Virus record (IMG/VR): IMGVR_UViG_3300027733_001413
Span: 1 to 20,358 of that record
Origin: a virus
Strand: one strand, 5' to 3'
Length of the DNA: 20,358 bases
This document shows, piece by piece, positions 7,119-13,840 of the stretch. The notes under the pieces are model-generated. The model saw only the letters and a list, made by a program, of their open reading frames with translations, was not told the origin of the DNA and searched no databases. Position numbers and translations under genes: made by a program. Each line of letters opens with the position of its first letter. Position 1 is the first letter of the stretch.

Positions 7119-7183
7119 TGAGAAAATATATATAAATCTATATTTATAGATAGGAAATAATAAATAAAAACTAAAAAACGATT

Positions 7184-11877: not shown

Positions 11878-12237
11878 ATGGAATTAAATCAATTCGTTTC
11901 AACGCTGTGGCAATCAAGAACACAAGCACACGTTTTTCATCATGAAACAAGTTCATACTCTGAACATAAAGCATTAAGAAATTACTATGAAAGTATTGTA
12001 CCATTGGTGGATGGGTTTGTGGAATCGGTTCAAGGAAAATATGGAATTATTCTTTCTTACTCTACTTATCCTCTTTCTGATTGGAAAGAAGGTGCTTCAA
12101 TGGAGTATTTTCATATGTTATGCGTGTTTGTCGAAGATGGTAGAAAAACTTTACCACAAGAAAGTTACATCCAAAATCAAATAGACACAATCGTTGAACT
12201 ATTATACGAAACTAAATATTTACTAACTCTTAAATAA
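11878..12237 (+). CDS. DUF5856-like (ferritin-like) phage protein
   Basis: The protein has 119 residues and is almost fully helical. Residues 8-45 read like the opening of a ferritin/Dps-type bundle: 'TLWQSRTQAHVFHHETSSYSEHKALRNYYESI', with His and Glu at spacing suited to metal binding, followed by 'LVDGFVESVQGKYG'. This fits the DUF5856 family, which occurs in many Bacteroidota phages including crAss-like ones and is of unknown function. Whether it binds iron, or is only a helical bundle reused as a virion or neck protein, cannot be told. It lies 15 bases behind the adaptor gene, in an A/T-only leader, and one base before the next gene, so it is a member of the portal operon. Confidence 0.65.
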   Translation: MELNQFVSTLWQSRTQAHVFHHETSSYSEHKALRNYYESIVPLVDGFVESVQGKYGIILSYSTYPLSDWKEGASMEYFHMLCVFVEDGRKTLPQESYIQNQIDTIVELLYETKYLLTLK

Positions 12238-12238
12238 T

Positions 12239-12460
12239 ATGGATTTAAATCAATTACGAAGGATTAGAGTAGAATTATCTAAACAGATTGAACCACCTAT
12301 GGTTCCTGCATTAGCAGTGGACGAGAAATTCATCATACCTTTACCCGAAAAAGGTGAGGAAGAAGACAAATACATCAATAGGTGTATATCGTCAATTATA
12401 GACGAATATGGTCAAGATCAGTCATACGCTATATGTATTTCCCAATGGGAGAACAAGTAG
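12239..12460 (+). CDS. Small protein with DQ..AIC.SQW motif
   Basis: The protein has 73 residues. A Pro-rich middle (residues 18-40) leads to 'KYINRCISSIIDEYGQDQSYAICISQWENK'. The pattern of a 'FI.RC' segment, an acidic stretch, 'DQ..A.C' and 'SQW' is often seen at the ends of phage head proteins and in small proteins of portal/protease operons, with an unknown role. The two Cys residues are conserved in that pattern and could form a metal or disulfide pair. It is the last gene of the forward structural block. The start ATG lies one base after the previous stop. A strong terminator follows at 12489-12518. Confidence 0.65.
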   Translation: MDLNQLRRIRVELSKQIEPPMVPALAVDEKFIIPLPEKGEEEDKYINRCISSIIDEYGQDQSYAICISQWENK

Positions 12461-12488: not shown

Positions 12489-12518
12489 AAAGGTTCTATG
12501 TGGAACCTTTTTTATTTT
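12489..12518 (+). terminator. Intrinsic terminator ending the structural block
   Basis: AAAGGTTC (12489-12496), a 6-base loop and GAACCTTT (12503-12510) form a perfect 8-bp stem followed by a T-rich tail. It lies 28 bases after the last structural gene's stop. Confidence 0.9.
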
Positions 12519-12663
12519 AATTTAGTTAGACGGTTTAATTTATATAATACTACAACTGTAATAATGAAATAAGGTAGGATTGATAAAGTATGTAACATAT
12601 TTTTTGGTTTTGTTACACAAAGATATGTAGGTATAATTTACCCACCAAATCTTTTTTATAAAC

Positions 12664-12683
12664 TTATCCACACTTTATCCACA
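12664..12683 (+). promoter_or_regulatory. Two tandem DnaA boxes
   Basis: TTATCCACA occurs at 12664-12672 and again at 12675-12683, in the same orientation with starts 11 bp apart, about one helical turn. This is the high-affinity DnaA box sequence. Both lie in gene-free DNA next to AT-rich stretches. A weaker match (TTTTCCACA) is at 13688-13696. Confidence 0.7.
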
Positions 12684-12684
12684 T

Positions 12685-12716
12685 AAAAAACCCCGTAAGT
12701 GGAAACAAACGGGGGT
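12685..12716 (-). terminator. Intrinsic terminator for the reverse-strand operon
   Basis: Read on the reverse strand, ACCCCCGT pairs with ACGGGGT around a 12-base loop with one bulged C, followed by TTTTTT (complement of 12685-12690). It lies about 150 bases beyond the last reverse-strand gene. On the forward strand the same stem is followed only by TCTTT, so it is weaker that way. Confidence 0.75.
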
Positions 12717-12761: not shown

Positions 12762-12828
12762 AAGAACGGGGTTGTATAACAAACAATATTTCCAATGGCA
12801 ATCAGCAATAAATTTCTTCCCCGTTCTT
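12762..12828. repeat. 10-bp inverted repeat enclosing 47 bases, possible structured RNA
   Basis: AAGAACGGGG (12762-12771) and CCCCGTTCTT (12819-12828) are perfect reverse complements. The enclosed 47 bases contain a small TTGT-ATA-ACAA hairpin at 12772-12782. The element would be in the 3' untranslated part of the reverse-strand transcript, between its last gene and its terminator. The ACGGGG/CCCCGT core is shared with that terminator, so alternative pairing is possible. Confidence 0.6.
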
Positions 12829-12867
12829 ATTATAAATATAACTAAAAGAATTTGTAATTCAAAATAA

Positions 12868-13140
12868 TTATATAACTTTATCTTCAGCTAATGGACTTTT
12901 TCCTTTAGTCTTATCATGAAGGGTTTTAAATACTTTTGTTTCTCCTGTCTCAAGGTAGTTGAACATCTCTGATTGAATATTAAATAACTCAACAACAGAA
13001 ACATTAATAGCAAACATTTTAATCAATTCAATCGATTGTGTTAATGCGGATGTTCTAATGATGATCGGTTGGGTATATTCTTTAAACCCTTGTGTTCTTT
13101 CATATGTATTACACATATCCATCCAATTTTTATTCGCCAT
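12868..13140 (-). CDS. Small hypothetical protein, reverse-strand operon
   Basis: The protein has 90 residues and no family I recognise. It is mainly helical by eye, with a hydrophobic middle ('IELIKMFAINVSVVELFNIQ', residues about 37-56) and a basic, charged end. No Cys pair beyond a single Cys10, no signal peptide and no clear DNA-binding motif. It follows the winged-helix gene after 5 bases, so the two are surely co-transcribed from the promoter at 13649-13656 and end at the terminator at 12685-12716. As partner of a regulator gene on the only reverse-strand operon it may take part in the same control or early function, which is inference. The start ATG (complement 13138-13140) is the only one near the open frame's beginning. 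Confidence 0.6.
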   Translation of the reverse strand: MANKNWMDMCNTYERTQGFKEYTQPIIIRTSALTQSIELIKMFAINVSVVELFNIQSEMFNYLETGETKVFKTLHDKTKGKSPLAEDKVI

Positions 13141-13145
13141 TTTGT

Positions 13146-13610
13146 TTAGTTTTGATTTTTTAATTTTAATACTTCTTTTGCTGAATTGAACTTTGCGTTG
13201 AATGTCTTTAACATCTCAGAATAGTTTAAATCTCTTGTACCATCAGGGTTGTCTATGAAAACTAAATTAACGTCAACCTTTTTTGGTAAAGCCTTTTTAC
13301 ATTGAGGAGGATTTGGGTTTAATTTATATAAGTAATTACCTACTCCCTTTTCTCCTTTTTCTTTACCTACAATAACTAAATAACCTTTAGCACTTAGATT
13401 ACGTAATACCCTACCTAAAGATAAATCACTTAATTTTTTACCTTTATATAATCTATCATGTATTTTTTGTATTGGCCATCTTGAGATTACTTCATCAGGG
13501 ATGGTATTAAAAATACATAATACTCTTTCATCTTGGCTTTTAGCCATATTAATTAACGGAGCAAGTTCATCAAAATTTATTTCGATGTTGTTGTGAAAAA
13601 AATCTGCCAT
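13146..13610 (-). CDS. Putative winged-helix DNA-binding regulator
   Basis: The protein has 154 residues. Residues about 27-97 look like a winged helix: helix 'DERVLCIFNTI', helix 'WPIQKIHDRLY', then 'LSDLSLGRVLRNLSAKGYLVIVG' as recognition helix and first wing strand, and 'GVGNYLYKL' as second strand. The C-terminal 55 residues are basic and helical, perhaps for dimerisation. Such proteins bind DNA and in phages often act as repressors or switch regulators. It is transcribed away from the 364-bp spacer in front of the forward operon that begins at 13975, the classic place for a regulator that controls both directions. The upstream -7 element TAAGTTTG (complement of 13649-13656) suggests host polymerase transcribes it. 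The fold is inferred from sequence pattern only. Confidence 0.55.
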   Translation of the reverse strand: MADFFHNNIEINFDELAPLINMAKSQDERVLCIFNTIPDEVISRWPIQKIHDRLYKGKKLSDLSLGRVLRNLSAKGYLVIVGKEKGEKGVGNYLYKLNPNPPQCKKALPKKVDVNLVFIDNPDGTRDLNYSEMLKTFNAKFNSAKEVLKLKNQN

Positions 13611-13656: not shown

Positions 13657-13840
13657 TCTCAAAAGTAGGAAATATATATGTATATAGTTTTCCACATACT
13701 TAAAAAAAATAGTTGAAAGATAATTTGGCTTTTCGGAAAATCTTTTGTATTTATTATGTATAGAAGTTGCGGAGACTTAAAACCCACTTGAAACTATTTT
13801 TAATAGAAGAATATCAAGCACTATTTCTATGCCCTTCTAT

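Follow-up and report, generated by a model that had tools for sequence, protein, structure and literature searches.

The window analysed here, which is 20,358 nt long and represents a whole virus record, belongs to a tailed phage, as judged by its terminase, portal, and protease, and the terminase is closest (44%) to those of Cellulophaga phage phi10:1 and Flavobacterium phage 11b. Its structural genes end at position 12460 on the plus strand, and two leftward genes (90 and 154 aa; 12868-13610, minus strand), for which no family match was found, end at 12868. Between these blocks lie two perfect copies of TTATCCACA, both on the plus strand (12664-12672 and 12675-12683), with starts 11 bp apart and a gap of 2 bp, just as a preliminary description of this DNA had reported. 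Both fit the high-affinity DnaA box consensus TTATNCACA and are presumably bound by DnaA; as a same-strand pair spaced by 2 or 3 bp, here 2 bp, they also constitute a double DnaA box. A 119-aa gene (11878-12237) matches PHROG 858, named starvation-inducible transcriptional regulator, and relatives of this gene are common beside structural genes in many viral contigs.

Read along the minus strand, the boxes appear as TGTGGATAA and stand in a defined order of elements: a hairpin followed by T6 (12716-12684), TGTGGATAA, 2 bp, TGTGGATAA, 14 nt, TTTG, 20 nt, TATCTTTG, a short leader, an ORF, and a further hairpin. TTTG (12646-12649, minus) and TATCTTTG (12618-12625, minus) correspond to the -33 and -7 elements, TTTG and TAnnTTTG, of the main sigma factor of Bacteroidota, sigma-ABfr, whose spacer measures about 19-20 nt (PMC7366714). 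This promoter, TTTG-N20-TAtcTTTG (12649-12618, minus), is the only match to TTTG-N18-21-TAnnTTTG in the whole window, and the boxes lie directly upstream of it on the same strand. Counting the linker up to the TTTG plus the spacer, the proximal box (12664-12672) is 14+20 nt from the -7 element and falls into distance class 34, while the distal box (12675-12683) is at 25+20 nt, class 45.

The promoter faces a 28-aa ORF, MLHTLSILPYFIITVVVLYKLNRLTKLK (12512-12598, minus), with a hydrophobic middle and a basic tail. As this ORF is present at six separate loci (the window, L005, L137, L151, L397, and L416), is 28 aa long in all of them, and shows dN < dS in 15 of 15 pairs, we take it as a real gene, and the region, which had been described as gene-free, contains both a minus-strand promoter and a conserved ORF downstream of the boxes. 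At all of its loci the ORF follows a boxed promoter directly, except in L151, where another gene intervenes first. Just past it, the hairpin AAAGGTTC...GAACCTTT (12489-12510) is a probable terminator, clearest on the plus strand. On the other side of the unit, the G+C-rich hairpin and its T6 (12684-12716, minus), read from the sequence and with its stem recovered in the predicted fold, is not reported by a simple hairpin scan with a loop limit of 8; it probably terminates the leftward genes located upstream, and its T run touches the distal box. Further towards these genes, the inverted repeat AAGAACGGGG ... CCCCGTTCTT (12763-12831) encloses a loop of about 46 nt and gives a stable fold on either strand. 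A structured RNA was rejected as an explanation of the box region, which has no Rfam match and no tRNA.

By its number alone, TTATCCACA is weak evidence and only mildly unusual: the window holds just these two copies against 0.39 expected by chance, and two copies were reached in 5 of 100 shuffles. The copies are not scattered over coding sequence; what makes the boxes significant is their placement and their conservation across phages. A related sequence with one mismatch, TTTTCCACA, occurs at 13688-13696 in the upstream region of the leftward 154-aa gene.

This placement recurs far beyond chance in related phages. In a comparison set retrieved by protein similarity and not by the box (84 loci, 757 kb), a perfect TGTGGATAA lies upstream and on the same strand in 17 of 64 distinct promoters, where 0.09 would be expected from the 31 boxes of the set; related phages are non-independent samples, so that p-values overstate this excess. 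By comparison, the box was found in the opposite orientation at 3 of these 64 promoters and downstream on the same strand at none. Strict promoters fall into two sets, with a perfect box in 16 of 31, three or more mismatches in the remaining 15, and no case with one or two. A scan of all viral contigs with the pattern box, 3-33 nt, TTTGG, 18-19 nt, TAnnTTTGTG retrieved 48 stretches, versus 2 for a control with the box written backwards. It replaced a looser scan allowing any base at the free box position, in which the matches listed were mixed with matches in coding sequence.

Furthermore, the boxes keep a constant helical phase to the promoter. The summed linkers from box to -7 element fall into the classes 24-26, 34-38, and 45-50, about one helical turn apart, with a single exception at 31, and the 84 protein-fetched loci give the same classes. 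At a period of 10.5 bp the Rayleigh R is 0.74 for 60 distances, which take in distal boxes of pairs as well as related phages and therefore overstate its significance. Such a fixed phase is what one would expect if the bound protein touched the polymerase always from the same side of the DNA. Where boxed units carry a same-strand pair, the second box is 2 or 3 bp away in 11 of 12 cases, and E. coli DnaA likewise prefers box pairs with a 2- or 3-bp gap (PMC11317965); we regard this match as the best argument for DnaA being the putative binder. In two phages the second box varies precisely at the free position of the consensus (L413, TGTGTATAA; L414, TGTGAATAA).

The genes behind these promoters are exchangeable. 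First ORFs downstream of boxed units range from 24 to 259 aa and sort into more than 25 groups unrelated to one another, and a terminator was detected downstream in part of the units only. The units reside mainly at two sites, either between the protease gene and the 249-aa gene, where they run against the structural genes, or past the structural block, as in the window. The first site (site I, a 65-nt gap at 7119-7183) is vacant in the window, holds a unit in many relatives, and is occupied for instance in L109 and L421; the second is occupied in L005, L095, L151, L154, L248, L402, L405, L417, L426, and the window. In the loci read that cover both sites one is occupied per locus, exceptions apart: L231, L422, and L430 contain two boxed units, and L116, L193, and L424 divergent pairs. 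L003 and L087/G405 have portals 92-93% identical to that of the window, and no boxed unit was found in them; the boxed promoter is also absent from several near-complete relatives, most relative records being fragments. The boxes are thus kept in many related phages but not in all. These changing sites, doublings, and absences argue for a portable accessory cassette and not for an origin.

Phage accessory genes that occur singly with their own promoter and terminator are known as morons. The units described here resemble them in their own promoter, short gene, terminator-like hairpins, strand opposite to the structural genes, and presence and position that vary between relatives; unlike morons, they share a DnaA-box promoter even though their genes are unrelated. 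A family search with ten of the downstream proteins (mostly their first 75 residues) gave matches for one only, all to families of unknown function. A cassette family represented by L407 (also L398, L415, and L433), encoded immediately behind the boxed promoter, has PHROG matches, all without a known function, and displays an HEIAH motif as in SprT-like metallopeptidases, a naming made by eye. Before unrelated genes, e.g. in L083, L109, L138, and L402, a recurring leader CGGGGACAG(C)GTATCTGAACA is followed by an A-rich stretch and AGTTATG.

We consider it likely that host DnaA, seated on a phased pair of boxes, activates a sigma-ABfr promoter that serves an accessory cassette. According to this model, the host-type minus-strand promoter with two DnaA boxes just upstream would drive a short cassette, consisting in the window of the 28-aa ORF flanked on both sides by terminator-like hairpins, whose product would presumably have an accessory function. 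Host DnaA would probably occupy the two boxes as a dimer, on the helix face that permits contact with RNA polymerase, and then activate transcription, making the cassette responsive to how much host DnaA is present or to its state. We infer activation rather than repression because the boxes are located upstream and in phase. Against this model, an activating DnaA at such promoters is not known as routine in these hosts.

That the site is regulatory does not by itself name its binder, and the 9-mer might instead belong to another phage or host regulator that matches the DnaA box by coincidence, the promoter architecture remaining as described. Flavobacterial phages can encode a protein with a DnaA-C (box-binding) domain, as shown by Cellulophaga phage phi10:1, in which gp034 (L462:16259-16720) is annotated as DnaA and carries the C-terminal DNA-binding domain, and other regulators probably act on units with a dyad over the -7 element (13 of 51). 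No DnaA-C domain was found, however, in 24 phage records of the family, of which the missing parts could harbour a phage-coded binder, whereas Bacteroidota DnaA retains the box-binding motif. Together with the exact DnaA consensus, the variation of second boxes at its free position, and a pair gap of 2-3 bp as known for DnaA, this renders a different regulator unlikely.

Somewhat less probable still is that DnaA represses the promoter or that the boxes titrate DnaA, by which the cassette would be shut off or host replication control disturbed. DnaA does repress some promoters, and at nrdAB it plays both roles depending on its nucleotide state (PMC8203912), but here the boxes lie upstream of the promoter elements and not over them, two spacing classes that differ by one helical turn agree with contact to the polymerase, and one to three boxes would probably be too few to titrate DnaA well.

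The least probable reading, rejected as the main one, takes the boxes as a phage replication origin at which DnaA opens AT-rich DNA and loads the replisome, the promoter being incidental or used for origin transcription: the box identity, the AT-rich surroundings, and the precedent of phage lambda, where origin transcription is stimulated by DnaA (PMC8203912) and both roles are hence combinable, speak in its favour, but box strand and phase are fixed to the promoter, the boxes are single or paired rather than in a larger cluster, cumulative GC skew in the window has no lasting sign change, at the boxes or elsewhere, and in related genomes, as far as their partial records extend, the unit occupies different sites, is doubled in some, and was not found in others. 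From the two functions proposed in the preliminary description, the transcription signal is therefore borne out by a strand and phase fixed to the promoter in dozens of phages, whereas the replication start is not supported, given the variable sites, the absences, and the lack of a skew change.

Activation by host DnaA has a counterpart at the lambda promoter pR. There, DnaA stimulates transcription via contact with the beta subunit of RNA polymerase, and in both cases, here by inference, a phage uses host DnaA as a transcription factor. In contrast to pR, the boxes of our phages stand upstream of a Bacteroidota promoter and in helical phase with it, and the genes served by the units are small and exchangeable ones instead of replication genes. 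The double DnaA boxes detected by ChIP-seq in E. coli are likewise tandem with a 2- or 3-bp gap (PMC11317965), yet those are chromosomal, while the ones reported here are predicted DnaA sites at phage promoters in another phylum. With ordinary sigma-ABfr promoters the units share the same two elements and the 19-20 nt spacer (PMC7366714), but they add an upstream DnaA-box element that is rare on host chromosomes.

Indeed, across Bacteroidota chromosomes the box-promoter arrangement was found in 14 of 395 genomes, compared with 2 for a reversed-pattern control. Given this rarity we do not claim a general host regulon, and the arrangement is better understood as a habit of these phages, built from host parts. 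Among the Bacteroidota matches listed in the scan of genome contigs, the distance from box to -7 element is concentrated at one fixed value, and nucleotide-metabolism genes follow some of the matches listed, as judged by eye.

Searches of open-licence literature found no report of this arrangement in Flavobacterium phages; lambda already provides a case of DnaA use at phage promoters, and the phased, paired, and portable form of such use appears to be new. If activation by host DnaA is true, DnaA-controlled phage transcription would reach beyond lambda into phages of another phylum, accessory gene expression in phages would be tied to the host replication cycle, and accessory genes, most of them without a known family, could be found from their promoter alone, with box pair, strand, phase, and promoter providing a clear testable rule. 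More tentatively, and with rather less confidence than for the single promoter, we speculate on a regulatory code shared within this phage family, in which host DnaA, via phased box pairs, would switch on exchangeable accessory genes and allow the virus to read the replication state of its host.

Some units may be subject to additional control. The dyads mentioned above are perfect inverted repeats of 9-11 bp covering the -7 element and start region, for which about none would be expected after shuffling; units with such a dyad include L154, L399, L407, L409, L108, and L398, and the window's own dyad over the -7 element measures 5 bp only. Likely, they add a second regulatory layer in some units, possibly as operators of a dimeric repressor. 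Between phages, both arms of these repeats change together.
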